Shown: positions 13,094-42,901 of the stretch, one piece after another
Position numbering within the stretch: position 1 is the first letter of the stretch
How the letters are laid out: each line of letters begins with the position of its first letter
Source of the DNA: Pseudomonadota bacterium
GTDB lineage: Bacteria > Desulfobacterota > Desulfobacteria > Desulfobacterales > Desulfolunaceae
Assembly (NCBI GenBank): GCA_018818835.1
Contig: JAHIRD010000027.1
Coordinates: 62,001-126,000, forward strand
Reading direction: 5' to 3'
DNA length: 64,000 bases
Notes under the pieces: model-generated
What the model was told of the DNA's origin: nothing
Databases searched by the model: none
The model's input: only the letters and a program-made list of their open reading frames with translations
Position numbers and translations under genes: made by a program

Positions 13094-13456
13094 TAATTAT
13101 TAGTGAGACTTTAATGTAATACCCTGAATATAATCAGAAAGTCCCAACAATCGTACTCAAGCTGACCCAAAATACCGAGTTTGGGTATCGTTAAATTTAA
13201 AGAAAAGCAGGGACAGACAAACAGGTTTTGTTTTTTTGTGTGACGACGTTAACATATTCCTATACACCAATCACCATACATAACCCATTTGCCCAGCTTT
13301 TTAAGCTTGTCCCCGCGAAGGCTGGGAAGCTGGCCGCCGGGGGCAATTTCTTCGTGCTCTTCGTGTCCTCCAGTGAGCGACGCGAACGGGTAGTTAAAAA
13401 CATGTGCCTTCGGCAGCCCTTCCGGGGCATATTTATAGAGTTCAGGAATCGACTGT
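13094..13456. repeat. Intergenic stretch with repeat family 2
   Basis: 13291-13400 carries CCAGCTTTTTAAGCTTGTCC, GCGAAGGCTGGGAAGCTGG and TTCTTCGTGCTCTTCGTG, followed by a AGTGAGCGACGCGAACGG block. It matches 19295-19402, 45788-45885 and 2889-2950. No gene seen. Confidence 0.65.
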
Positions 13457-18864: not shown

Positions 18865-19502
18865 GGATAGTCATCCTGAATTTAAAATTTATCCGATTAT
18901 CGTTGTCTCTTATGGAATCCTTAAACCACATATTTTTAACAAAATCAAATGATCTGGCCTTTGGCTAACACCTGCCGGGGCTTTTTTTCCCTTCATGTGC
19001 TTGATGGTAAAACTGTTTTTGTTTGATCAGGTTTTAATCCCTTCAAACAAGGGCACGGCGCGCCATACCCCTACATCGATTGACCCTGAATCCAGCCTTA
19101 AAATCTTCATACGTCCCATGCCTCCCATCAGTCCTATAAGACTCATAAAACCCATAGGACTTATGTTTAGAAAATAATCAGAATATTCTGGACATGTGGT
19201 AAGTAAACGATTAAAAAAATAGAAAAATAGGGGACAGGCAAATAATTCAGTTCTGATAGACTAACGAAGAAACAAAAAACCCACTTCTCATTTGTCCAGC
19301 TTTTTAAGCTTGTCCTTGCGAAGGCGGGGAAGCTGGCCGCCGGAGGCATATTTCTTCGTGCTCTTCGTGTTCTTCAGCGACCAACGGGAGCGGGTGGTTG
19401 ATAAAAACTAAGTTCCCAGGCTGAAAGCCTGGGACCGTGTATGATTTTCCCCGTGAACGCATTTACGATCACAATGTGGCAGGTCAACCGGTTTCACGGC
19501 TG
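18865..19502. repeat. Intergenic repeats (families 2 and 3)
   Basis: 19029-19088 repeats family 3 (CCCTTCAAACAAGGGCACGG and ATCGATTGACCCTGAA). 19117-19165 has degenerate CCCAT/CTTATG words similar to the long palindrome at 51719. 19295-19402 is a full copy of family 2. No gene is supported. Confidence 0.65.
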
Positions 19503-29437: not shown

Positions 29438-30181
29438 ATGAAAATAAAAGCAATGATTGTCGAGGATGAAGCGATCAATTTACGGGTGCTGGAGAAGATG
29501 CTTCAGCAGTATCCGAAAATCGAGATCGTGGGCAAGGCGGAGAGCCGCAAGGAGGCCCTGGCGATTCTCAAAGAGCGTACTCCCGATGTGATTTTTCTGG
29601 ATATCCTTCTGCCCGATGGCTCGGGTTTTGATATTCTTTCCCATGTGGATGACAAAATCAGCGTTATCTTTACGACGGGACATGGGTCATACGCGGTCCA
29701 GGCGTTTGAAATCAATGCGGTGGATTATCTTTTGAAACCGTTCAGCCATGACCGTCTGGCCGAGGCCATCCGGCGCATGGAGAGCATGAAACAAAAAAAC
29801 CTCTCAAGCAGCAAGGGGGATGAGGGCCCCGTGTTCAAACTCAAGGTGGACCAGCTTCTGGTCAAAACCGGCTCGGAGCAGCGGTTTGTCCGATACTCCG
29901 ATGTCCTCGCCGTTGTTTCGGAAGGAGGGAATTACACCTCCGTGCACTACAGTTGGAAAAAACCGGCCATCATTCGGAAGACCCTCAAAGAATTGGAGGA
30001 GACACTTCCCGTCGGTCAATTTTTCCGTATCCACCGGTCCTGCATCATCAATGCAGCCAAGATTGTCCGTCTTTCCCAAAAAGACGGATATGTTGTCTAT
30101 CTGGACGGGATGGAAGATCCGTATAAGGTGTCCCGCCGCCATGTGGCCGATATCAAAAAAGCCATGACGCCCCCCTCCTGA
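29438..30181 (+). CDS. LytTR-family response regulator
   Basis: This protein has 247 residues. The receiver domain (1-125) has the acidic pair in VEDEA, phospho-acceptor Asp55 in FLDILLPDGSG, Thr in FTTGHGSYAVQAF and Lys in YLLKPF. The LytTR DNA-binding domain (about 140-240) includes FVRYSDVLAVVSEGGNYTSV and GQFFRIHRSCIINAAKI. LytTR regulators bind promoters with repeated short sites and often govern surface or signalling genes. The hybrid kinase gene starts 17 bases later, so the two form one operon, and the kinase is the likely phosphate donor. Confidence 0.92.
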   Translation: MKIKAMIVEDEAINLRVLEKMLQQYPKIEIVGKAESRKEALAILKERTPDVIFLDILLPDGSGFDILSHVDDKISVIFTTGHGSYAVQAFEINAVDYLLKPFSHDRLAEAIRRMESMKQKNLSSSKGDEGPVFKLKVDQLLVKTGSEQRFVRYSDVLAVVSEGGNYTSVHYSWKKPAIIRKTLKELEETLPVGQFFRIHRSCIINAAKIVRLSQKDGYVVYLDGMEDPYKVSRRHVADIKKAMTPPS

Positions 30182-30197
30182 ACACGGAGTTCCCGCT

Positions 30198-33110
30198 ATG
30201 TTTTCGTCCACCTTGTTTAAAAAAATCTTTCTCTATATTTTCTGCGCCATGGCGTTTCTTTTCGTCTGCATTTATTTTCAGACCGTGCCGGTGGTCAAGA
30301 ACAAAGTCTTCAGCCTGGAACGAGAATCGGCAATGACCATTCTCGACAACGTGTATGAAATCGTGGATGCAAAATACCAGGATATCGAGGGCTACAGAAA
30401 AAGCGCACTGGAAGACCACAAACGCGAACTCAGGAATATCGTTCAGATTGCCGAGTCCCATATCCGGAACCGATACACCGATTACACATCGGGGCGTTTG
30501 ACGGAAACCCGGGCCAAAGAAATGGTTCTTCAGGAACTCCGGTCTTTCCTGTACGGCAAAAACGATTACATCTGGGTGGCTGATTACCAGTCCGTGCTCA
30601 TTTCCCATCCGGACAAGGAGCTGTTTAATGCGGATTTTTCAGAGGTGACGGATATTCACGGCAATCTCATCGTCCCGGATCTGGTGAAGGTGGCCCTGGA
30701 TCATGGAGAGGGGTTTCATTCCTACTGGTGGAGACGTCTGGGCTCCACCACGCCCATGGAGAAGCTGAGCTATTCCAAGCATTTCAAGCCGTGGGAATGG
30801 GTGGTCGGCACAGGAGTTTACATCAACGATGTGGAAGAGGAGGTGGATCGCCAGAAAACCAAAATGATCGAGGACCTCAAACAGATCCTTACAACGATCC
30901 GGATCGCGGGAACCGGTTACATGTTTATCTTTGATTCGGACATGACCATGTTGATCCATCCCGATCCCAAACTTGAAGGCACCTTTGGCGGTAATCTGCT
31001 CAACCCCGATACCGGCAAACCGATTTTAAAAGACCTTGTTGCGGTGGCCGGGGAAAGAGGCCGGGATTATGTATACAGATGGAATAAACCGGGAGATAAG
31101 GACAACTTCATCCACGAGAAAATGTCCTGGGTCAGAGAATTCAAGGGGCTTGGCTGGTATATCGCTTCTTCCGTGTATGTGGATGAACTGAACAAAGGCT
31201 CCATGCTCCTCAGGAACAGGATTCTTTTTATTTTTCTGATCACGTTTTTTCTTTTTTTTCTGGTGTCATGTTTTTTTCTTAACCGGCTTCTTGTGCCCGT
31301 TCGGAAACTATACGGCACAGCGGAAGAGGTCATGGCGGGAAATCTGTCGGTCCGGTGCAATATCGACACTAAGGATGAGTTCGGTATGCTGGCCGACGCG
31401 TTCAACAGCATGGTGGCCAAGCTGAGTTCAAACATCCGGGAACTGGATAGCCGTGTCAGGGAGCGGACGGCAGAGCTTTTAAAGGCCAAAGACCTGGCCG
31501 AGTCCGCGGCAAAGGCCAAGAGTACGTTTCTCGCCAACATGAGCCATGAAATCAAAACCCCCTTAAACGCCATTATGGGACTCACCCAATTGACCTGTGA
31601 GACGGATCTGACGGAAAAACAAAACGGCTATGTGGACAAAATCGGAAAATCCGCCCAATCCCTTTCGCTTATTGTTCACGATATTCTTGATTTTTCAAAA
31701 ATCGAGGCCGGAAAGATGGAAGTGATTCGGTCAGAATTCAGCATGGAGGACATGCTCGACCATCTGTCTGAGATGTTTGCTCTGAAGGCACAAAAAAAAG
31801 GGCTGACTCTGGATTATAAGGTGTCTGATCAGGTCCCCGGGCTTCTTTTCGGGGATTCGGTTCATTTGACCCAGGTTCTGATGAATTTGATATCCAATGG
31901 GATCAAGTATACGGATAAAGGCGGCGTGACTGTGACAGTGGATACGGTGGAAGCAGGAGAGCAGGTGGAAGACCCTTCGTGCGTGACTCTGACCGTCTCG
32001 GTGATGGATTCGGGGATTGGAATATCCGGGGACGATATCGGCCGTTTGTTTCAACCGTTCACCCAGATCGACGAATCCATCACCCGGACCCATGGTGGGA
32101 CGGGACTGGGCTTGAGTATTTGCAAGCAGCTGATCGGTCTTATGGGTGGAAACATAGGGGTGGAAAGCAGGCCAAACATAGGAAGCACCTTTGTATTCAC
32201 GTCCGTTTTTGAGAGGGTCTCCGGGGTGACTTCTCCGGCGCGGCTTTATGAAGAACAGAACCTTAAACGGGGCTCTGGCCATGTGCCGGACATCAATCCT
32301 ATCTCCGGGGTCCATATTCTTCTGGTGGAAGATAATGAAATCAACCGTCAGGTGGTCCGCGAATATCTGGAGAACCGGTCGATCCGGGTCACCGTCGCGG
32401 AAAACGGCCGCGAAGCCGTGGATTGTGTGGTAGGGTCGGAGGTGCCTTTCCATGCCATTCTCATGGATATCCAAATGCCCGTCATGAACGGATTGGATGC
32501 GGCAAAAGCTATTCTATCAATAGAAAAAGGGGCCTGGGTTCCCATCATCGCCCTGACCGCCCATGCCCTGGTTGAGGAAAGGGAGAAATGTCTTGATTTG
32601 GGCATGGTTGATTATCTGACCAAGCCCATCAACCCCCAGGCCATCTTGAACACCCTTGTGACATGGATCAAGCCCGGGCATACCCCACCTATCCATGACA
32701 TGGCCATACCGGATAACCATGATTTCATTGGACGGCTTCCCACTTCCGTGCCGGGTATAGACATTGCCGACGGTCTCGCCCGGGTGGATCACGATGAAGA
32801 ACTTTACCTTGAGCTACTGGGAAAATTGAAAGATACCTATACCCATGCCGCAAGAGACATTCGCCATCACATCACTGGGCAGGATATGAAACGCGTTTAC
32901 CACGTGGTTCATTCCCTGAAAGGCGTTGCGGGCAATCTTGGGGCCCATGAGCTTTCAAACAGTGCACAGGCCATCCAGGAGGTTTTGAACGAGGGCGGCG
33001 ATATATCCCATTTATTAGGAACGTTTGAGGAAGCCCTAAGCCGGGTCATGGCCAGTATCGAGGAGTTGGAACAGTTACGTCCCGAAACGTCCGTGGAAAC
33101 CCCTTTATAG
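30198..33110 (+). CDS. Hybrid sensor histidine kinase with two Cache domains, REC and Hpt
   Basis: This protein has 970 residues. An N-terminal membrane helix (9-31) is followed by two periplasmic Cache modules, each with the DYIWVADYQSVLISHPD / GYMFIFDSDMTMLIHPDP pattern. Then come a second helix (near 336-358), HAMP, and HisKA with His450 in ANMSHEIKTPLNAIMG. The HATPase follows (SNGIKYTDKGG, DSGIGISGDD, GGTGLGLSICKQL). A receiver has Asp757 (AILMDIQMPVMNG), and an Hpt domain has His905 in VHSLKGVAGNLG. The protein can run a complete His-Asp-His phosphorelay to the LytTR regulator encoded upstream. Cache domains usually bind small organic ligands; the ligand here is unknown. Confidence 0.93.
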   Translation: MFSSTLFKKIFLYIFCAMAFLFVCIYFQTVPVVKNKVFSLERESAMTILDNVYEIVDAKYQDIEGYRKSALEDHKRELRNIVQIAESHIRNRYTDYTSGRLTETRAKEMVLQELRSFLYGKNDYIWVADYQSVLISHPDKELFNADFSEVTDIHGNLIVPDLVKVALDHGEGFHSYWWRRLGSTTPMEKLSYSKHFKPWEWVVGTGVYINDVEEEVDRQKTKMIEDLKQILTTIRIAGTGYMFIFDSDMTMLIHPDPKLEGTFGGNLLNPDTGKPILKDLVAVAGERGRDYVYRWNKPGDKDNFIHEKMSWVREFKGLGWYIASSVYVDELNKGSMLLRNRILFIFLITFFLFFLVSCFFLNRLLVPVRKLYGTAEEVMAGNLSVRCNIDTKDEFGMLADAFNSMVAKLSSNIRELDSRVRERTAELLKAKDLAESAAKAKSTFLANMSHEIKTPLNAIMGLTQLTCETDLTEKQNGYVDKIGKSAQSLSLIVHDILDFSKIEAGKMEVIRSEFSMEDMLDHLSEMFALKAQKKGLTLDYKVSDQVPGLLFGDSVHLTQVLMNLISNGIKYTDKGGVTVTVDTVEAGEQVEDPSCVTLTVSVMDSGIGISGDDIGRLFQPFTQIDESITRTHGGTGLGLSICKQLIGLMGGNIGVESRPNIGSTFVFTSVFERVSGVTSPARLYEEQNLKRGSGHVPDINPISGVHILLVEDNEINRQVVREYLENRSIRVTVAENGREAVDCVVGSEVPFHAILMDIQMPVMNGLDAAKAILSIEKGAWVPIIALTAHALVEEREKCLDLGMVDYLTKPINPQAILNTLVTWIKPGHTPPIHDMAIPDNHDFIGRLPTSVPGIDIADGLARVDHDEELYLELLGKLKDTYTHAARDIRHHITGQDMKRVYHVVHSLKGVAGNLGAHELSNSAQAIQEVLNEGGDISHLLGTFEEALSRVMASIEELEQLRPETSVETPL

Positions 33111-33265: not shown

Positions 33266-34717
33266 TTATTTTACTTTAGGCCATGATTCCACAAGATTTT
33301 TCCCTGAATCAAAGATGCTGATTGAAATGCCGTGATCGCCATCCAGGCGATGCGTTGCGCAGGACACTCATGGGTCGTAGGCGCGCACCGCCATTTCGAT
33401 CTTGTTCAGGGTACCCTCATCCACTTCCCCGTTTTTAATCAACAGCTTGGCGGCCTGATCCACGCTCATGTTAATGGGCCCCAGATTATGGGTGGTGCCC
33501 ACAATCATATTGGCTCGGGTGATCAGACCGTTTTCATCGGTGGAATAATCATGAATCAGAGTGCCTCTGGGCGCTTCCACACAACCCACCCCTCGGCCTG
33601 CTCGCGGTTCCGCAACGGCCCTGACATTTGGATCCGTAATTTCAGGATCATTGAGCAGGGCAATGGCATGCTCACAGGCATAGACTTCTTCAATCAGCCT
33701 TGCCCAGTGATAGAGCAGTGTTGCCTGGGCCGGTCTGCCGAATTTTTCCCTGAATTCTTCCAGCTCTGCCTGGGCATATGGTGTGGACATATGGTCCGTG
33801 ACGTTGATTCTGGCAAGACAGTTGGATCTGTATATCCCTTTGGGCGCATCAAGATCCATTGAAAACCCTTCCCCCCAGCTCCGGGCATAGGGAAACTTCC
33901 CATAGGACCAGGGCACCACCTGCTCACCGATATAATCAGTATAGTCGGTAACATCAAAGTCGGTATATGTGCCGTCCGGTTTCATAAGCCTGATCTTTCC
34001 GTCATACAGATTCATGGCCCCGTTGTCGTCGACGGTCCCCATGAAACCTGTGTTGATGACGCCCAGCACCTGAATGGTGTCCAGATATTTCGCAAAGACC
34101 TCTTTTTTTGCAAAATCCATGGTAAAGAGCGCAAAATCCAGAATTTCCTGCATTTCTACGAGCATCTCCTTGCGGTCCTTTTCGGTGAGCGGTTTGGCAA
34201 AACCGCCGGTCACACCGGCCACAGGATGAATGGCTTTTCCTGAAAACTTTTCCAGAATCATTTTGGCTTTAAACCGCATCTGCACCACTTTTTTGGCAAG
34301 ATCCGGGTTGGCTTTGACCACACCGATGACATTTCTCACTGCGTAATCACTGTCCGGGCCGATCACAAAGTCAGCGGCCGCCAGAAAGAAAAAGTGAAGC
34401 AGCTTGTCTTCCGCATGGGCGATGGTCTGCATGAGTTCACGCAATTTCTGTCCGGCTGGCGGGGGTGTGACACCGAAGCATTTGTCCACGGCCTTGTTTG
34501 ACGCCAGATGATGATGCCAGGGGCAGATACCGCAGATGCGGTTTACAATCCGGGGAAGCTCCTCGGCCGGCTTTCCCTCCACAAATTTTTCAAACCCCCT
34601 TAGGGATTGAAAATGGACTTTGGAGTCCTTTACATTGCCGTCATCATCCAGATTGATGGCAATGGAAGCATGGCCTTCAATCCGGGTTAGCGGTGAAATG
34701 GTGATTGTTCGAGTCAT
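33266..34717 (-). CDS. mvhA: Selenocysteine-containing NiFe hydrogenase large subunit (MvhA/VhuA type)
   Basis: This protein has 483 residues including Sec, from the ATG at 34717 (AGGAACTCTGT upstream; a frame to 34774 has no site). The N-terminal nickel ligands are in NRICGICPWHHH (Cys62, Cys65). A conventional reading stops at ...AVRAYDP where TGA (33368-33370) stands. Reading on gives Sec-VSCATHRLDGDHG and a TAA at 33266. Thus the L2 motif DPCxxCxxH becomes DPUxxCxxH, as known for NiFeSe hydrogenases. A 33-residue tail follows, normally cut off by the maturation protease. The subunit takes up H2 and feeds electrons through MvhG and MvhD to HdrA. Stopping at TGA would remove two nickel ligands. 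Confidence 0.92.
33335..33351 (-). promoter_or_regulatory. bSECIS-like hairpin of mvhA
   Basis: In the mRNA, 16 bases after the UGA, AUCGCC-UGGAU-GGCGAU forms a 6-bp stem with a 5-nt loop containing GG. Position and loop fit the SelB-binding hairpin of bacterial selenoprotein genes. Confidence 0.75.
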
Positions 34718-34904
34718 ACAGAGTTCCTTTTTATTTGCTTTTGTTCTGCCTCCGGCGGCCCTGCCGGAAGCCAAACTTTATGATAAAGTTTGACAAAACA
34801 CGTTTTTGCCATCCACAGGGCCTTGGCAACCATTCAGCCTAAGACGTCCACCCAAACCATTTGCTCAGCTTTTTAAAGCTGCCCCCAGAGTGGGCTACCC
34901 AATG
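34718..34904. repeat. Spacer between mvhG and mvhA with repeat fragments
   Basis: Contains a partial family 2 copy (CATTTGCTCAGCTTTTTAAA at 34859) and GCCTCCGGCGGCCCTGCCGG. No gene. The mvhA ribosome site AAGGAA is at its left end. Confidence 0.5.
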
Positions 34905-35843
34905 TCACGCCCCGTCTTCTTTGAAGGGAGGCCGAAGCTGTCCGTGGGCACCGGAAAACCTGAGAAGCGATGTGGTTTCAGGCAGGGATGTAATGTCGAT
35001 CCCATTGGAGGCCAGCGCATTGAGCATGTCCATCATCTGATTACCCTCATGTTTTACAGGCCCGTAACATCCCCTGCAAGGCACCCTGACAGAAAGGCAT
35101 CGGGGAGTAATGGTGTTGCCGCCGCAGCCGGCCCGGGTCACCGCTCCCATACAGAGAATGCCCTGCTCCAAAAGGCAACGCATGGTATCCAGAGGTTCGG
35201 CAAAACCGTTGTGCTTAGGTGCTTTAAGAAACCGGGTCAGCTTTTTCAGATCACCTTTGCCCTCACGCCGGGTGGGACAGGTATCACACACGCTTTTGTC
35301 AGACAGGTTCGCCGGTCTGTTTTCCAGCAGAGCCACCAGGGCCTCAAACACCTGGTCCGGATGGGGTGGACACCCTGGAAGGTAGACATCCACATGGATT
35401 TTTTCATCCAGTGCATAGCACGATTCCAAAAGCTCGGGGATGCCGGCCGACGGATAACTGTCAGACGGGTCCGTGGTTTCCGTGGTATAATAGCGGTCCA
35501 GAATCTCGTTGTTGCCATAGGTATTGCACAGGGAGGGTATGCCCCCATGGGTGGCGCAGGTGCCCAGGGCGATGACGATTTTGCATTTTTTCCGGATCTC
35601 CTGAGCCAGCTCCAGATGTTCCTCATTCCTGATGCCGCCACTGATAAGGCCCACGTCCGCCTCAGGCAGGGACAGATGTTTTTGATCACCGAGCTGCCCG
35701 TAATATTTGTTGTCCATGAGCACCGGGATATGGACAAAATCAACCAGATTCAGGACATCCAGGAGCCGTTCTCCCATATCCACAACGGCAATTTCACACC
35801 CGGAGCATGAGTTGAGCCATTCGCTTAATACTTTGACTTTCAT
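34905..35843 (-). CDS. mvhG: NiFe hydrogenase small subunit (MvhG type)
   Basis: This protein has 312 residues with the ferredoxin-cluster ligands of MvhG/VhuG. They include NSCSGCEIAVVDMGERLLDV at the N terminus, ALGTCATHGGIPSL, YLPGCPPHPDQVFEALVALL, and C-terminal clusters around RCLLEQGILCMGAVTRAGCG and VPCRGCYGPVKHEG. It lacks a Tat signal, so the enzyme is cytoplasmic, as expected for the Mvh-Hdr complex. It passes electrons from the Ni site of MvhA to MvhD. GGAGTCACT precedes ATG 35843. It lies 105 bases after the FrhB-like gene. Confidence 0.93.
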   Translation of the reverse strand: MKVKVLSEWLNSCSGCEIAVVDMGERLLDVLNLVDFVHIPVLMDNKYYGQLGDQKHLSLPEADVGLISGGIRNEEHLELAQEIRKKCKIVIALGTCATHGGIPSLCNTYGNNEILDRYYTTETTDPSDSYPSAGIPELLESCYALDEKIHVDVYLPGCPPHPDQVFEALVALLENRPANLSDKSVCDTCPTRREGKGDLKKLTRFLKAPKHNGFAEPLDTMRCLLEQGILCMGAVTRAGCGGNTITPRCLSVRVPCRGCYGPVKHEGNQMMDMLNALASNGIDITSLPETTSLLRFSGAHGQLRPPFKEDGA

Positions 35844-35948
35844 AGTGACTCCTTTATTTCAGCCTTGCTTAACAGTATTTGCATGGTGCTTTTTCACATT
35901 TTAGGCCTTAAAAAATGACTATCCAGAGATACCCTTTATGGGTGAATA

Positions 35949-37064
35949 CTAACTGACGACGTTCACCCCTTTAGAACCCAATGTTTTCAAATTCTTTCGG
36001 GCCGTCTGTTTTTTATCATTGGATGCGACGCGCGTTATGGAGAGCGCTTGACTTGCGTAACCGGCATTTTCCGAAACCAAGAAATCCTCCACCAGCTTGT
36101 TCCGTGCATCCGCAAATACGGCTCGTCCCAGAGGCGTTCTTGTAATGACGGTTGTCCAGCCCTCATCCGCACCTATTCCGCCAAATGAAATATCCGCATA
36201 CTCAGACGCATAATCCATACAAAACCGGCAGGCATACCGTTTCATGAACTCAAGGTCGGAAAGGGGCAACTCTTTAACCTCTCCTTCGCTGCTATGAACC
36301 CTGAAGGTTTCCTTAACATTGAGTTTCTTCACGGCGTTCCAGTCAATGTTATGGGTGTCAGAGAGTTTTTTTCTCTGGATATCCCCAAAAATAAAATTCC
36401 CGGAACAGAACAAACCGAAACAGAATTTAATCGAATCCGACGGCATGATCTCAAGAAGCTCCATCCGGCGCACAGACTGAATCTGACAGGGGGTGCCCAC
36501 CAGGGCCACCCTGCGCAGTCCTTTTTGCATTATGGGTGCAAACTCTTCAATGGATGAATAGGTGCGATACTCTTCATTGATCTGATTCACCCCCTGGGAC
36601 ATGTCAAAATAAAAGCCCGCTGCCTCAAGGATTTCCTCTCTGCTGGTGGCCAGTGTGGGATGTCGCTGAAACCGCCCTGTGGGCCTGGTCACAATGGCTC
36701 CATCTATTTTGCCTGTATCAAACAGGTGCACCAACAGTGCCGTGACCACCCCGCCGTCCGTTGCCCTGGCCCTGATCTGCTCGTCCTTTGCCCTGGCAAC
36801 CGTGGTTTCGATGACCCGTCCCATGGGTGCACTCCAGGCAAGCTTTCGCTTCACTTCCTCTTCCAGCTCTTCAATTTCAGGGCATATGGAGTAACACAAG
36901 CCGCATTCGATGCACTTTTCAATATCACGATATTTGGGAGACCCTTGCTTGTCCAACTCCAGGGCGCCATAGTTCACAGCTGTGCAAAAGGTCACACACC
37001 CTCCGCACCGGTGACAGAGTCCCGGCTTCTGAACCTCCTGAATCAAGTTGAAAAACGTTTTCAT
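35949..37064 (-). CDS. FrhB-like flavin/Fe-S protein (F420 hydrogenase beta-subunit family)
   Basis: This protein has 371 residues. Two N-terminal 4Fe-4S motifs are CHRCGGCVTFC and CIECGLCYSICP. The FrhB core follows: RARATDGGVVTALLVHLFDT, VALVGTPCQIQSVRRME and RYACRFCMDYASEYADISFG. In methanogens FrhB carries FAD and reduces coenzyme F420. In sulfate reducers the same family occurs in Hdr operons and may use another hydride carrier or ferredoxin. GGGAGGCTGT precedes ATG 37064. It sits between HdrCB and MvhG, which suggests a fourth electron port of the complex. Its electron acceptor cannot be told from the sequence. Confidence 0.85.
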   Translation of the reverse strand: MKTFFNLIQEVQKPGLCHRCGGCVTFCTAVNYGALELDKQGSPKYRDIEKCIECGLCYSICPEIEELEEEVKRKLAWSAPMGRVIETTVARAKDEQIRARATDGGVVTALLVHLFDTGKIDGAIVTRPTGRFQRHPTLATSREEILEAAGFYFDMSQGVNQINEEYRTYSSIEEFAPIMQKGLRRVALVGTPCQIQSVRRMELLEIMPSDSIKFCFGLFCSGNFIFGDIQRKKLSDTHNIDWNAVKKLNVKETFRVHSSEGEVKELPLSDLEFMKRYACRFCMDYASEYADISFGGIGADEGWTTVITRTPLGRAVFADARNKLVEDFLVSENAGYASQALSITRVASNDKKQTARKNLKTLGSKGVNVVS

Positions 37065-37129
37065 ACAGCCTCCCGATTTGTTTGCGTGTGTTAAGGCAAG
37101 GTCCGATAAATGGTCTCGGACTTTTTCCT

Positions 37130-38431
37130 TTACAAACCGACCTCAGCCAGATCAGGCCCCAGATAGGTCCGTTCATTTTCCCCAAGCGTCCCCATGGCAA
37201 GACAGATCAGGGTCCACAAATGCACGGTGTGAAATGTGCCTTCAAAATGTTCCGACAAATCATGAATCTGGGAATGGCAGTTATGACAGGGGGTGATGCA
37301 GTAATCTGCACCGGTCTTAATGATCTGATTGAATTTCTGGCTGCCGTAAGCGTGTCGTTCTTCAGGCAATCCGGCCTGGAGAAATCCCCCACCGCCGCCG
37401 CAGCAGAAATTATTGGAGCGGTTGGGAGTCATATCAATGAAATTTTCTTCCCCGACCACTGCTTTGACCACGAAGCGCAGGTCTTCCGCGATGGGGTCCC
37501 CCAGGCTTTTCCGAACCAGCTGGCACGGGTCCTGAACCGTAAATTTCACTTTGCGATTCCGGTTCCAGTCTGAACTGACCTTGAGTTTGCCCTCGCGAAT
37601 CCAGCGGGCGTAATATTCGATGATACTTTTGACTTCAAACGTATGCTGAATGTTAAACTTTTTCAGTCCGGCCCGGACTGCAAAAAATTCGTGACCTCAC
37701 TCGGTGTTGAGCCACACCTTTGCCCCTAGATCATCAACGGCTTTCGCCTTGGTTCTTACAATGGATTCCCAGTCTTTATTGTCACCCATAAACATGCAGT
37801 AGTTCTCGGCTGCCCAGCCTTTACTCCCGTAGGTCCAGTCCGCACCCACAGAGTGCAGAATTTTCCATAGGGGCACCATCTCATCGGGTTCGGTCACCGG
37901 CTCCCTGGAATTCTGATTCAGGAAAAAGGTGGCCCCTGATTTGTCCATGGGGGCCTCCAGGCTTTCAAACCCCGATTGACTGTCACGGACTTCCTCAAGC
38001 ACATCTTCCACAACAAAGACCCAGTCCTCCTCCGACGCACCCATGGCGCTACAGGTATCGTGTTTCAAGGCAAGGTCACAGGAACTGACAATCCCCTTGG
38101 GTTTTTCATCCCTGGGTTTTACGCTGCGCACATTGTATATCAGCTGGGGGATGTCGATCTGCATCGGACACACATAAATGCACCGCTGACACATGGTGCA
38201 CATCCATGCCCACGGACTTGAAAGAATCTCCTCATCCATTCCCATGGATGCCATTCGTAAAAATTTTCTCGGGTCCATATCCGCGAGCCCTGTTGCCGGG
38301 CACCCGGATGAACAGACACCGCAGGTCAGGCACATGTTCAGATTGCCGCCGTCGGGCAGAAGCGCCATGACGGAATCTTTGAACAGGCTCTTTTTTTTCT
38401 GACCGAGTTTGATGACAGGTTCAGTACTCAT
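37130..38431 (-). CDS. Selenocysteine-containing HdrC-HdrB fusion (CCG-domain heterodisulfide reductase-like subunit)
   Basis: This protein has 433 residues with Sec245, from the ATG at 38431 (AAGGGGTAAGT). The HdrC part has two 4Fe-4S motifs, CLTCGVCSSGCP and CTMCQRCIYVCP. The HdrB part is CCG-like. A TGA at 37697-37699 splits the frame after ...KVWLNTE; reading through gives NTE-U-GHEFFAVRAGLKKF, where relatives have NTECGH. The second CCG motif is complete: VQDPCQLVR, NNFCCGGGGGF and CITPCHNCHSQI. Such subunits reduce a disulfide or another thiol acceptor with electrons from HdrA. The split frames would otherwise look like two broken genes. Symbol left open because the fusion resembles HdrD in layout. 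Confidence 0.88.
37664..37680 (-). promoter_or_regulatory. bSECIS-like hairpin of the HdrCB gene
   Basis: Sixteen bases after the UGA, CAGUCC-GGGCC-GGACUG forms a 6-bp stem with a 5-nt GGGCC loop. The stem is extended by U and A runs on either side. Confidence 0.75.
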
Positions 38432-38503
38432 ACTTACCCCTTTTTTCTTGCTGTTGTTATGCACTCGTCAATGCCATCGTCTGTAACGGGTAGATCGCGT
38501 GTT

Positions 38504-38947
38504 TTACCCGGTTTTTCTCTGTTCAGCCTCAACCTTTTCAGCAGCCCGGTTTGCCCCCAGCGCTCTGATTTTTTCCGTAAATTCGGTCACGATCAGCGCA
38601 AACCGGGGGGCTTCGGCCGAAGAGACCCACTGAAGGTCAAACCGCCTCGGATCAATGCCCGAATCCTTTAGCACTATGCGTATGATTTCCCCTCTGTCTC
38701 TGGCTTTATAATTACCATCCAGGTAATGACATTCGCCCAGATGTCAGCCCATAACCAGAACACCGTCAGCCCCTCTTGCAAGGGCCTTCACGATCAGTTC
38801 CGGGTGAACCATACCCGAACACATCACCCTGACGGCCTTCATGTTCGGGGGATACTGTATCCGGGAAACCCCGGCAAGATCCCCGCCAGCATAGGCACAC
38901 CAGTTACACAGAAAACCCACTATCACCGGTTCAAAGGATTGACCCAT
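38504..38947 (-). CDS. mvhD: Selenocysteine-containing MvhD iron-sulfur subunit
   Basis: This protein has 147 residues with Sec68. GFLCNWCAYAGGDLAGVSRI is the diagnostic MvhD start, and VRVMCSGMVHPELIVKAL follows. The frame meets TGA (38744-38746) at GVLVMG; reading through gives U-HLGECHYLDGNYKARDRG, where MvhD proteins have CHPGDCHY. The 2Fe-2S subunit links the hydrogenase to HdrA. The frame ends at TAA 38504. GGAGAACACG precedes the ATG. A Sec at this place is known in the VhuD/FrhD group of methanogens and some deltaproteobacteria. Confidence 0.93.
38711..38727 (-). promoter_or_regulatory. bSECIS-like hairpin of mvhD
   Basis: Sixteen bases after the UGA, AUUACC-UGGAU-GGUAAU forms a perfect 6-bp stem. 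The loop UGGAU is identical to that of mvhA although the stems differ. Confidence 0.8.
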
Positions 38948-39170
38948 ATCGTGTTCTCCTTATTTATTGGTTCCGTTTTAAGCCTCCAGCCGTCCTGCCG
39001 GGAGCAAACCCAGTAGGGGCACGGCGCGCCGTGCCCCAACGTCGATTTCAATGACGATTTTGCAACCATGCAAAACCCATTTGCGTGTCGGGGCGAAGCC
39101 TTGGCGATGACCGATCCAGATTTTTAAAATCTGGCCCCCCCGAAAGGGCCGCCAAAAGCTTTTTGGCAGA
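38948..39170. repeat. Spacer between hdrA and mvhD with repeats
   Basis: Contains GGGGCACGGCGCGCCGTGCCCC (a near-perfect palindrome, 39015-39036). It also holds CATTTGCGTGTCGGGGCGAA at 39078 shared with 2849, and the hairpin CCAGATTTTTAAAATCTGG. No gene. Confidence 0.6.
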
Positions 39171-42100
39171 TCACGATGCCTTGAGTACGGCATCCACCTG
39201 GGCCATCAGCTGATCCAGTGTAAATCCGTGGACCTGGACTCCGCCTTTGGGGCAGGTGGCGGCACAGATTCCGCATCCTTTGCACAATGCGGTATCCGTT
39301 TCTATGCGCTTCTGCATACTCGCATGTCCCTGATATTCCACCAGCCTGATGGCATGATAGGGACACACATCCACGCAAAGGGCACAGCCGTCACACCGAT
39401 CCGTGACAAAGGACGTGATGGGATTCAGTTTCATTTCCGTTTTTGCAAGCAAAACGCCTGCACGGGAAACCGCAGCCATAGCCTGGGCAATGGATTCGTC
39501 AACGGGCTTGGGATAATGACAGAGACCTGCCACAAAAAGCCCGTCAACACTCATATCCACCGGTCGAAGTTTTGGATGGGCTTCATTGATAAACCCGTCT
39601 TCATCCACACTGAATTTAAACAGCTGTGACAGTCCCGAGATACCCGAAGACTCAATGGCTGATGCCAAAACAAGATAATCCGCATAAATGGCAACAGGCT
39701 GCTGAAGAATAGGATCTGTTGCAGTGACAACGATCTTGGCATCCTCACGACGGACATCGGGCTTAGTGTCGGAATCATACTGTATGAAAATAACCCCCAG
39801 CTGTCTGGCCTTGTGATACCAGGTTTCAAACACACCATAGGTGCGAATGTCACGGTAAAAAACGAATACCTGTTTTTCAGGGTCCATTTCTTTCAAGGCG
39901 ATGGCTTTTTTGACGGTATGGGTGCAGCACACCCGGCTGCAGTACGGTCGTTCTTTGTTCCTCGATCCCACACACTGAATAAAAGCCACACACTCTGCCT
40001 TCAGGACAGCATCGCTTTTCCCGGCTGTAAATGCGTCAAATTCCAGATGGGTAAAGACCCCAGGGTCGCTTCCATACATGTATTCGGACGGTTTGGTTTC
40101 ACGTCCACCGGTTGCGACAACCGCCACACCAAAAGAAACGTCCGTCCGGGCGTTTTCCTCTGTCTGAATCAGCCCGGTAAAATTGCCCACAGAGCCTTTG
40201 GCTTCAGCAAGAGTGGCCTTTTTCATCACAGTAATCCGGGCATTGTTTTCCACATCAGCGATCATCTGCTCCAGCGCGGGGCGGAGCGTTTGCCCGTCTG
40301 CGGTTTTTTCCAGATAGTGGGCATTACCGCCCAGTTGATCGCTTTTTTCAATGAGCACCGTATCGTAGCCCAGTTCGGAAAACCCCAGTGCGGCCGTCAT
40401 GCCCGATAAACCGCCGCCGATCACCAGTGCTTTTTGTGTGACAGGCACTGACTGCGATCGAAGGGACGAGGCCAGTGCCACCTTGGCCACAGCCATCCTT
40501 ACCTGATCCTTGGCTTTTTGCGTTGCCATTTCAGGGGTGTTTTTATGAACCCAGGCATTGTGATTTCTGATATTGGCCATTTCCATCAGATAGCCGTTCA
40601 GGCCTGCGTCTTTTAGCGTTTCCTGAAACAGCGGTTCATGGGTTCTGGGCGTGCAGGCTGCGATAACAACCCGGTTCAGATTAAGTTCTTTAACCTTGCC
40701 CCCGATGATCACCTGAGTGTCTGTTGAACAGGTGAACAAATTGTTTTCCACAAACACAACATCGGGAAGGGTTTTCGCGTATTCTGCCACGGCCTTGACA
40801 TCCACCACTCCGGCGATGTTCATACCGCAGGAACAAACAAAAACACCGATACGGGGTTCCCCTTGGTCAACATCCCGCTCTTCAGGATAGGTTCTCTCCT
40901 TTGTCAGGGTGCCTTTGGCAGATGCCAATTCCATGGACACCTTACAGGCTGCTGAGGAGGCCTGTGTCACTGATCGCGGAATGGCCATGGGGCCGGAAAA
41001 ACTGCCCCCGATACAGATCCCCTTTCGTGAGGACTGGGACGGCGAAAACGAATCCGTTCTGGCAAATCCCCATTGATCCAGATCAATCGCGGCGATTTTT
41101 GATAACTTTTCCGCATCAGAAGGCGGCTCCATGCCCACGGACATAACGGCCATGTCAAACAATTCCGTGCGTTTTCCGCCGTCTTTGTCCATCCAGGTGA
41201 TGCTTACACCGCTGCCGTTAGGGCCGGGATCAAAGGTATGGGGCCGTTCACGAATAAATCGGACCCCTTTTTCAGCCGCATCCTCATAATACCGGTCAAA
41301 ATTTTTCCCATGACTCCTGATGTCCATGTAAAAAACTGTCTGGGTGGCATGGGACGGAAGATGGTCTGCCGTGACAAGGCATTGTTTGATGGCATACATG
41401 CAGCAGACACTGGAGCAGTAGCTGCGGTCATGCCGGCTGATACTTCGGGAACCCACGCACTGCAGCCATGCGATGCTAAGCGGTTCCTGGTTGTCCGAAG
41501 GCTTGGCCAGATGCCCCATGAGCGGCCCCCCTGCCGACAGCATCCGCTCATACTCCATCGATGTGACCACATCCGGTATACGGCCGTATCCGGTATAATC
41601 GTATTTTCCGGGATTAAAGGGAACATGGCCCGGTGAAAGAATCACCGCGCCGGTAAGGATCGTTTTTGTGGTTTCAACATCCTCGAAATTAATGGCTCCT
41701 GTTGGACAGAATTTTTCACAGGCCCGGCATTTGCCTTTCTGAAAATAAAGACAGCTTGAGTCGTCAATGGCATATTTGAGCGGTACGGTCTGACCATACT
41801 GTATATAGACCGCCTTCCTTTTGCTGATCCCCATATTGAACTCATCAGCCACCTTTTTTGGGCATTTTTCAGCACACAGACCGCAGGCAATGCATTTGTC
41901 CATGTCCACAAATCGGGGTTTTTGTTTGACTGTGACGGTGTAGTTGCCAACAGAGCCTGCAACCTCCGTAATTTCTGACAGGGTGTGAATTTCAATGTTT
42001 AAGTGCCGACCGCACTCGACCAATTTTGGCGAGATAATTCACATGGCACAGTCGTTGGTGGGAAAGGTCTTGTCCAGCTTGGCCATTGCACCGCCAATGC

Positions 42101-42218
42101 CTGGACTTTTTTCAATTAAATAGACATAAAATCCCGAGTTGGCCAAGTCAAGTGCGGCCTGAATACCCGAGATCCCCCCACCCACAATGAGAACGGACCC
42201 ATTTGGTTTCGCTGCCAT
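39171..42218 (-). CDS. hdrA: Selenocysteine-containing HdrA (electron-bifurcating flavoprotein, long form)
   Basis: This protein has 1015 residues with Sec60, from the ATG at 42218 (AGGTGTCT). The first FAD motif is [18 protein letters not shown], then [10 protein letters not shown] and TGA (42039-42041). Reading through gives [20 protein letters not shown], where HdrA has a conserved cysteine. 4Fe-4S motifs [13 protein letters not shown] and CRACEKFCP follow. A second flavin domain starts near residue 595 ([17 protein letters not shown]), and ferredoxin motifs [12 protein letters not shown] and [12 protein letters not shown] end the chain. HdrA splits electrons between ferredoxin and HdrB. 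Without read-through the gene looks like a 59-residue fragment plus a TTG-started 950-residue frame. Confidence 0.92.
42001..42017 (-). promoter_or_regulatory. bSECIS-like hairpin of hdrA
   Basis: Twenty-one bases after the UGA, GAGUGC-GGUCG-GCACUU forms a 6-bp stem (one G-U pair). Its loop holds GGUC, the word found in the loop of the E. coli fdhF SECIS. Confidence 0.7.
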
Positions 42219-42352
42219 AGACACCTCTTTTTGTTTTGGTGTGGTTGTGGTTCTCCCATTTCCATCTTGTGGTCGCGACAAAAATAAGAGTTCCTGCATT
42301 CGAACATTGTTAACACGTGCCATAAAAAAAATGACCACTACATAACGTGGCC

Positions 42353-42901
42353 TTAAAATGCAAACGTAACTGAAACATTGTCATCCATGGATCTGCCCTT
42401 TTCGTGAATGGGCTTACCCCCCAGATCACGAATAAGTTTTTCCGCAATCACAGGCACTGCTTTCTGAACAGGCAGGGAGAGCCCCGGTGCAACCATATCC
42501 GGGAGTGTTTCAAACTGAACGACCATAAGCCTTATATCGATGGATGTATTTTCTTTGAGTTCTTTCAGCATATTGGTGGTGGGAAATTGATGGAGTGAAA
42601 AATCACTGATTTTTTCCGGACGTATCTGATCCACATCAATGTCGAACAGTTCGCCTGGCCAGCGGCCCGGCATGTCTACAGCATCAAGGATGATGATCTT
42701 TTCCGGCCGCCGATCACTTAAAATGATATCGAAGAGAATCTCACGAATAGAGGTCCCGACATCAATAAACGTGCAGCCGTCAGCCGGTGTATAGTGGGTT
42801 TCCAAATACTGTATGACAGCCGGACCAAATCCGTCATCGCCAAACAGAGGATTACCACATCCAAAAACCAGCGTATGACTTTTGTTGATCAGCTCAATCA
42901 T
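42353..42901 (-). CDS. Hydrogenase maturation protease (HycI/FrcD-like)
   Basis: This 182-residue protein has the HycI/HyaD peptidase pattern: [20 protein letters not shown] with the first nickel-binding acidic residue, [10 protein letters not shown] with the second, and [14 protein letters not shown] with the histidine. The enzyme cuts the C-terminal tail of the NiFe large subunit after nickel insertion. Here the target is the MvhA tail that follows Sec and the CATH motif. It is the first gene of the operon, 135 bases before hdrA. GGAACACTA precedes the ATG. Confidence 0.88.

Follow-up and report, generated by a model that had tools for sequence, protein, structure and literature searches.

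The 64,000-nt window analysed here (contig JAHIRD010000027.1, part of a 334-contig draft genome) harbours on its minus strand a seven-gene operon in which the genes for HdrA, MvhD, HdrCB and MvhA each contain one in-frame UGA codon, at a position where homologues carry Cys (4/4 genes). The operon is predicted, with a probability of roughly 0.8, to encode a soluble, H2-oxidising and electron-bifurcating Hdr-Mvh complex with four selenocysteine (Sec) subunits, and the hairpins following the UGA codons of the four genes are very probably selenocysteine insertion sequence (SECIS) elements. This reading of the hairpins and the four Sec sites had been put forward in an earlier note on the same DNA (hereafter the original prediction), and is now strongly supported by the contrast between UGA-bearing and Cys-bearing relatives and by synonymous resampling. 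C numbers below denote other regions or contigs of the same genome, and L numbers denote loci. The genes, in their order along the operon, are as follows.

42353..42901, minus strand: HycI/FrhD-type hydrogenase maturation protease at the head of the operon (Pfam HycI, 7.4e-22; NCBIfam TIGR00072, above cut-off)
39171..42338, minus strand: HdrA, two fused modules, type II-like (NF040770 in three stretches, below cut-off; alignments to solved HdrA)
38504..38947, minus strand: MvhD/FlpD, 147 aa (Pfam FlpD, 1.2e-51)
37130..38464, minus strand: HdrCB (HdrD-like), an HdrC-type Fe-S part plus one Pfam CCG domain
35949..37064, minus strand: FrhB/FdhB-like flavin and Fe-S subunit (Pfam FrhB_FdhB_C, 5.1e-36; FrhB_FdhB_N, 1.1e-20)
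34905..35843, minus strand: MvhG/VhuG small hydrogenase subunit (Pfam Oxidored_q6, 1.2e-32; NF045875, 2.3e-68, below cut-off)
33266..34774, minus strand: MvhA/VhuA [NiFeSe] hydrogenase large subunit (Pfam NiFeSe_Hases, 1.3e-34; NF041785, 1.9e-141, below cut-off)

With the exception of TIGR00072 (the protease), the NCBIfam names stand for matches below the curated cut-offs; the named Pfam domains pass theirs. Also below cut-off are the scores of HdrCB against the HmcF/TmcB/DsrK models, which it resembles, and the match of the MvhA end to VhuU (NF041786, 4.1e-11). The true start of HdrA possibly lies downstream of the GTG, and no in-frame UGA (Sec) is present in the translations of the FrhB-like gene and MvhG. 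The UGA codons and the hairpins, with distances counted in nucleotides after the UGA, were located as listed here.

42039..42041, minus strand: UGA (Sec) codon of HdrA, context DCAMU, aligned to residue 197 of 5odc_A
42001..42017, minus strand: hairpin of HdrA, GAGUGC[GGUCG]GCACUU, +21 (21 nt after the UGA)
38744..38746, minus strand: UGA (Sec) codon of MvhD, context MGUHLGECHY
38711..38727, minus strand: hairpin of MvhD, AUUACC[UGGAU]GGUAAU, +16
37697..37699, minus strand: UGA (Sec) codon of HdrCB, context TEUGH
37664..37680, minus strand: hairpin of HdrCB, CAGUCC[GGGCC]GGACUG, +16
33368..33370, minus strand: UGA (Sec) codon of MvhA, context DPUVSCATH
33335..33351, minus strand: hairpin of MvhA, AUCGCC[UGGAU]GGCGAU, +16, coding mostly for residues past the CATH motif

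On re-reading of the sequence, all four in-frame UGA codons and the hairpin layouts proved to be as the original prediction had stated. In all four window genes the hairpin is placed just 3' of the UGA and carries a G early in its apical loop; that of HdrCB can be drawn equally well as a 7-bp stem with a GGC triloop. The UGH motif of the latter protein is listed for the Fe-S oxidoreductase-like selenoprotein in the available part of PMC13188914. As for the base rate, a 6-bp stem with a 5-nt loop was found at exactly +16 after 20 of the 5701 codons of the two operons of this genome, Sec sites included.

The comparison with relatives covered 67 loci, two of them from this genome, five from named genomes and 60 from the phylum. 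A search of 395 phylum genomes gave an MvhG match at E<=1e-40 in 88, and the phylum loci were taken from these in order of match, best first, passing over one (G224); the contig scan of the named genomes gave only five loci. In MvhD, all six pairs of the +16 stem are formed in 43 of 43 UGA genes as against one of 13 Cys genes, whereas synonymous resampling expects 1.45 of 43. The corresponding counts are 31/50 and 0/8 for MvhA (1.64/50 expected; L094, which is too short, was left out of the stem counts) and 11/17 and 0/5 for HdrCB of the two clades described below (0.14/17 expected). In a larger set restricted to the clade of the window HdrCB, the full stem is present in 30/30 UGA genes and in 0/5 Cys genes, and the next inner pair varies between G-C, U-A and A-U. 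The MvhD arm GGU AAU is constant in all 37 distinct UGA rows, while the Cys genes drift, and in the MvhD paralogue on C327 both arms are altered together (AUUUCC with GGAAAU). Each of the inner five pairs of the MvhA stem is formed in 45-47 of the 47 distinct rows. Covariation was scored for HdrCB in an alignment (A2) of 16 of the 17 rows, L056 being omitted, whereas the hairpin count over distinct rows covers all 17. The number of paired cells, the number of cells changed on both sides and the covariation score were each attained in 1 of 500 shuffles; the number of pairs changed on both sides was attained in 371/500, and that of further pair types in 500/500. In a combined MAFFT alignment of three families, HdrCB was shifted by a single column, and this alignment was set aside.

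The 30 distinct UGA rows of HdrA fall into two hairpin classes, of 18 and 12 rows. The class tracks the coded residue (ECGRH or EVGRH), so that the choice of SECIS alters the protein. Where the ninth residue after Sec is Cys, the +21 stem is formed in 28/28 UGA genes (1.55 expected); where it is Val, a 6-bp stem with a 4-nt loop is formed at +16 in 14/14 (0.89 expected). At least one of the two stems is found in 42/42 UGA genes (6.44 expected), a count that leaves out the misaligned row L047 (GAC). Furthermore, 23 of the 28 genes with Cys as the ninth residue are able to form a +16 stem too. The window HdrA is among them, as judged by reading its sequence; three of the six pairs of its +16 stem are G-U, and the two stems (42001-42023) are mutually exclusive. 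With a +16 stem available in 23/28 and 14/14 genes, HdrA, and thus all four genes, may use the +16 register.

Several observations weigh against the reading of the hairpins as SECIS elements. Four of the eight Cys homologues of HdrA retain one of the two stems (1.16 expected), which makes HdrA the weakest of the four cases, and one of the 13 Cys genes of MvhD, as mentioned, retains the full stem. In MvhA the full stem is absent from 19 of the 50 UGA genes, the failures lying mostly at the outermost pair, and the genes of L103 and L105 are without this hairpin type. Six of the 17 operon UGA genes of HdrCB, both clades included, have no full 6-bp stem at +16: three form 5 bp around a 4-nt loop and two form 6 bp around a 3-nt loop; in L056 there is only a weak stem, at +8. 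The mean z-scores of folding energy (minimum free energy) are weak for MvhA (-0.87) and MvhD (-0.95) and better for HdrCB (-1.80); given these values, the evidence for MvhA and MvhD is the register of the hairpin together with its synonymous freezing. Chance hairpins were nevertheless rejected, on the grounds of the Cys controls, the synonymous resampling and the base rate at +16. Disruption of the stems by synonymous drift, which the original prediction had named as the observation that would speak against SECIS elements, was examined as well, and the SECIS reading withstood it. The fixed geometry emphasised by that prediction is real, but all five paralogues of HdrCB and MvhD with UGA that were examined outside the operon in this genome have the +16 stem as well, and this stem is therefore a general decoding layout and not a hallmark of the operon.

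The Sec residues were also aligned to solved structures. The Sec of MvhA is the first residue of DPUxxC, where solved chains have Cys, and that of MvhD matches the first Cys in the GCHxGDCHY motif of the solved protein. The large subunits of [NiFe] hydrogenases are usually cleaved after CATH during maturation; the MvhA hairpin codes mostly for residues past this motif, so much of the peptide that it encodes may be absent from the mature protein. In HdrA, module 1 (approximately residues 44-472) carries Sec100; the N-terminal domain and the ferredoxin clusters of the C-terminus belong to module 2 (approximately residues 486-1055). Sec100 aligns gap-free to Cys197 of 5odc_A, and a non-standard residue (X) occupies this position in 9sfi_A. 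Module 1 aligns to solved HdrA from residue 50 on, the match to the N-terminal domain being found at residues 486-646; module 1 is hence without this domain, while module 2 has it but, as far as can be read from the sequence, is without the Cys. According to the available part of PMC9012536, Cys197 of one HdrA serves as a trans ligand for the N-terminal Fe-S cluster of its partner; in tandem or fused HdrA proteins, Cys197 and the N-terminal domain are lost in a complementary fashion. The two modules of the window HdrA fit this pattern, which suggests that Sec100 probably bridges the fused halves as a selenolate ligand. As judged by eye, Sec256 of HdrCB (TEUGH) falls at the expected end of a putative first CCG-like half that is degenerate. 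The protein has one Pfam CCG domain instead of the two non-cubane sites of methanogen HdrB, which counts against the predicted complex.

In methanogen complexes, as described in the accessible portions of PMC12350162 and PMC9012536, electrons pass from MvhD to the flavin adenine dinucleotide (FAD) of HdrA and are then split to HdrB and ferredoxin. By homology, H2 would be split in the window complex by MvhA and MvhG, at a Ni site to which Sec is a ligand, and the electrons would travel via MvhD to the FAD of HdrA and be split there; the low-potential branch would reduce ferredoxin, and the high-potential branch would exit via HdrCB (to a putative acceptor of the disulfide type) and/or the FrhB-like subunit. 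The original prediction places Sec at the nickel site, the 2Fe-2S relay, the flavin subunit and the reductase subunit of one complex. The sites in MvhA, MvhD and HdrA align to Cys residues of solved Hdr-Mvh structures; as regards the complex, homology and gene order are what point to a single physical assembly and to bifurcation.

The closest published systems put the operon in perspective. Five-gene operons glpC-hdrA-frhD-frhG-frhA, three of them in Syntrophobacter fumaroxidans, were found also in Desulfotalea psychrophila (Zhang et al. 2006, PMC1794560, available in part), and a 2026 review, likewise available in part, terms this a four-selenoprotein-gene operon (PMC13188914). As far as the available text goes, the 2006 operon shares with the window Sec in HdrA, FrhD/MvhD, FrhA/MvhA and an Fe-S oxidoreductase, an FrhG without Sec and a doubled hdrA. 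It differs in that glpC comes first, whereas the window has an HdrCB of another clade between mvhD and frhB and an extra FrhB-like gene, and in that its hdrA genes are adjacent (fusion events are mentioned), whereas the two modules of the window HdrA share one frame. The window operon is, as read from its gene content and order, a rearranged variant of the four-selenoprotein operon published in 2006, and its novelty is smaller than the original prediction implied. The methanogen HdrABC-MvhAGD complex (PDB 5odc; 8rvu, 9sfi) likewise comprises MvhA, MvhG, MvhD, HdrA and HdrC-type parts, but has Cys where HdrA, MvhD and MvhA of the window have Sec; the window differs from it further in the fusion of HdrB with HdrC, the one Pfam CCG domain, the bacterial in-gene SECIS, the FrhB-like subunit and the two-module HdrA. 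Similarly, in Desulfobacterium autotrophicum HRM2 a Sec hydrogenase is clustered with a Sec HdrA (mvhA2DG-hdrA1, PMC2702500), and hdrD4 also encodes a selenoprotein; in the part of that source available, hysAB and not hdrD4 is named as a member of the cluster. A literature search that covered few subscription papers found no report of the order mvhD-hdrCB-frhB or of selB* (see below) with this operon.

Among the 67 loci, 62 have both MvhG and MvhA, and 13 of these bear UGA at all four sites, four with HdrCB of the window clade (window, C15, L046, L055) and nine with HdrCB of the other clade. In L098 and L099, two of the nine, HdrCB lies at the other end of the operon, and L056, also one of the nine, gave only a partial HdrCB match. 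Another 22 of the 62 loci have UGA in each of HdrA, MvhD and MvhA; HdrCB is absent from that strand of their stretches, and 16 of the 22 have FrhB. The HdrCB tree (56 rows, without the S. fumaroxidans and D. psychrophila genes) contains two separate clades of 36 rows (support 100/99) and 17 rows (93/99), the bootstrap not having settled. Members with Sec and members with Cys occur in both clades; what differs is therefore the recruitment into the operon and not necessarily the origin of Sec. In a FastTree phylogeny of 43 concatenated rows, HdrCB-bearing operons of the FrhB type appear in three places (the window with C15 and L046; L055; L065); the 24 of the 67 loci dropped from it had no MvhG/MvhA, MvhG below 45% identity or no HdrA/MvhD, or were the named L094, L095 and L097. 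Three separate positions would be explained by repeated gain of HdrCB or by an old gain with losses, and HdrCB may have entered operons of this type repeatedly. The four-Sec set of this operon type would owe its origin to the placement, between mvhD and frhB, of an HdrCB that carries Sec and belongs to a separate clade. Twenty further loci with window-type HdrCB, picked outside the known operons, have no MvhG/MvhA in the stretches examined, some of which are short, and several of them adjoin HdrA-MvhD pairs.

Partial Sec states were also encountered: in the order HdrA, MvhD, HdrCB, MvhA, two loci read UCUU, one UCCU and three CCCU, and seven loci have Cys at every site read. These states hint that Sec was lost first from MvhD and kept longest in MvhA, in few and related events; the Sec/Cys splits rest on few independent losses. 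The nested pattern is broken by L107, where MvhA has Cys but HdrA and MvhD have UGA; both L107 and L108 are distant (MvhG 36-37% identity). L046 is the named strain Desulfoluna limicola ASN36, with a complete genome, in whose four-Sec operon HdrCB is in place and FrhB was not found. In L082, L092 and L095, MvhA stops short of the C/UxxC motif, its last residues being RAYNP or RAYAP, and may be a split gene like VhuA/VhuU.

A second copy of the seven-gene operon, 75-90% identical and with all four UGAs, is present on C15. The GC content of C15 (0.52-0.53) differs from that of the window (0.47), and the second copy could therefore stem from a mixed bin. The similarity between C15 and the window ends near the operon, save for short interspersed repeats of about 44-99 bp and 80-98% identity, some of which lie inside operon gaps; these shared repeats favour a single genome, but are no proof of one. 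In the window they were mapped as follows.

2849-2947, 13282-13345, 19289-19348, 39074-39127 and others: interspersed repeats

The C15 copy (L174, L034, L175) is flanked by another [NiFe] hydrogenase and by hyp-like maturation genes, as named by eye. Just downstream of the window operon, on the other strand (29438-33110), a LytTR-type response regulator and a large hybrid histidine kinase are encoded, likewise named by eye. The original prediction had proposed a check for a paralogous Cys-only operon. A HdrCB-HdrA-MvhD cluster with Cys throughout does exist on C85, but no MvhG/MvhA was seen in the 18 kb read there, and a complete Cys-only operon was looked for in the genome and not found. The three hydrogenase large subunits of the genome that have no UGA are distant (29-35% identity).

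The machinery required for Sec decoding is encoded in the genome by a SelB on C92 and by a tRNASec with G73 on C317. In addition, a second SelB (SelB*; C160:18003-20068, L043 and L176; 298 bits), 32% identical to SelB, is adjoined on C160 by a tRNA of Cys identity with a UCA anticodon, an 8-bp acceptor stem, A1:U72 and U73. Of 13 other regions of the genome, C160 is the closest in composition to the window (GC 0.468, delta 0.069), and for this reason the view that the second SelB comes from contamination was rejected. The finding raises the alternative of a double reading of the UGAs, in which SelB with tRNASec inserts Sec and SelB* with the selC*-type tRNA(Cys,UCA) inserts Cys, Se and S forms of the proteins being made according to selenium supply. 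The SelB*/tRNA(Cys) pair may decode the same UGAs, which would count against a strictly four-Sec complex. In the available excerpts, the selC* tRNA(Cys) and selB* are described as occurring in Desulfobacterales together with cysS* (PMC7609411), and such tRNAs are said to read Sec UGA codons as Cys (PMC11415595). Furthermore, no close Cys hydrogenase paralogue was found in the genome, hence a back-up would be useful. C160 shares with the selC*/selB*/cysS* system (Mukai et al. 2017, via the available parts of PMC7609411 and PMC11415595) the UCA anticodon, U73, A1:U72 and the adjoining selB*, but there is no cysS* beside selB*, C160 having given no match to cysteinyl-tRNA synthetase (CysRS), and the pair is not linked to the four-Sec operon. 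A second CysRS-like gene lies elsewhere (C100:41766-43130, L197, in a 791-aa frame) and scores 337.6 bits, just under the cut-off of 340. Close relatives of SelB* (E<=1e-110) are found in 19 of the 395 phylum genomes, namely in 8/44 genomes with the Sec operon against 11/351 others (p 0.0004), the latter including some whose MvhG matches were not fetched; five of the eight genomes belong to one family, so that this co-occurrence is not independent. Within the stretch examined, a tRNA called SeC or Cys accompanies 19 of 20 SelB*-type loci, and by eye 17 of these tRNAs show U73 and two (L190, L195) A73. At the SelB*-relative loci L183-L185, L187-L189, L191, L192 and L194, a tRNASec-like tRNA has the Cys anticodon GCA and not UCA, lying about 1.2 kb from selB in several of them. 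Taken as a whole, dual decoding of the operon seems rather unlikely.

It is still less probable that the window simply carries the published glpC-hdrA-frhD-frhG-frhA operon, inherited unchanged. That operon unites the same four selenoprotein families (PMC1794560 and PMC13188914, in their available parts), and it would be matched by the nine of 62 four-Sec loci with the other HdrCB clade, in seven of which HdrCB stands ahead of HdrA; however, the window HdrCB, which is 31-36% identical to the GlpC type, falls in a different clade and lies between mvhD and frhB. As for sequencing errors or pseudogene stops accompanied by chance hairpins, a draft of 334 contigs might give rise to such a suspicion, but the UGAs have open frames beyond them and are kept in both copies of the operon and in most relatives, and the hairpins are retained far above the synonymous expectation. 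Pseudogenes and assembly errors were rejected on the former grounds, and this explanation is considered extremely improbable. A Hdr-Mvh complex with four Sec subunits is thus the preferred reading.

If dual decoding were true, a single operon would make both Se and S forms of the bifurcating hydrogenase, and a separate Cys operon would be unneeded; with a second SelB and a Cys-type tRNA(UCA) in the genome, it can be tested directly whether one protein set switches with selenium supply. The occurrence of D. limicola ASN36, a named strain with a four-Sec relative, likewise makes the question testable, and natural operons with four, three, two or one Sec sites provide comparators for the role of Sec at each step. 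That the four-Sec Hdr-Mvh set has been built with two HdrCB clades suggests that Sec has been selected for at several points along a single path of electrons, and is not just an accident inherited once.

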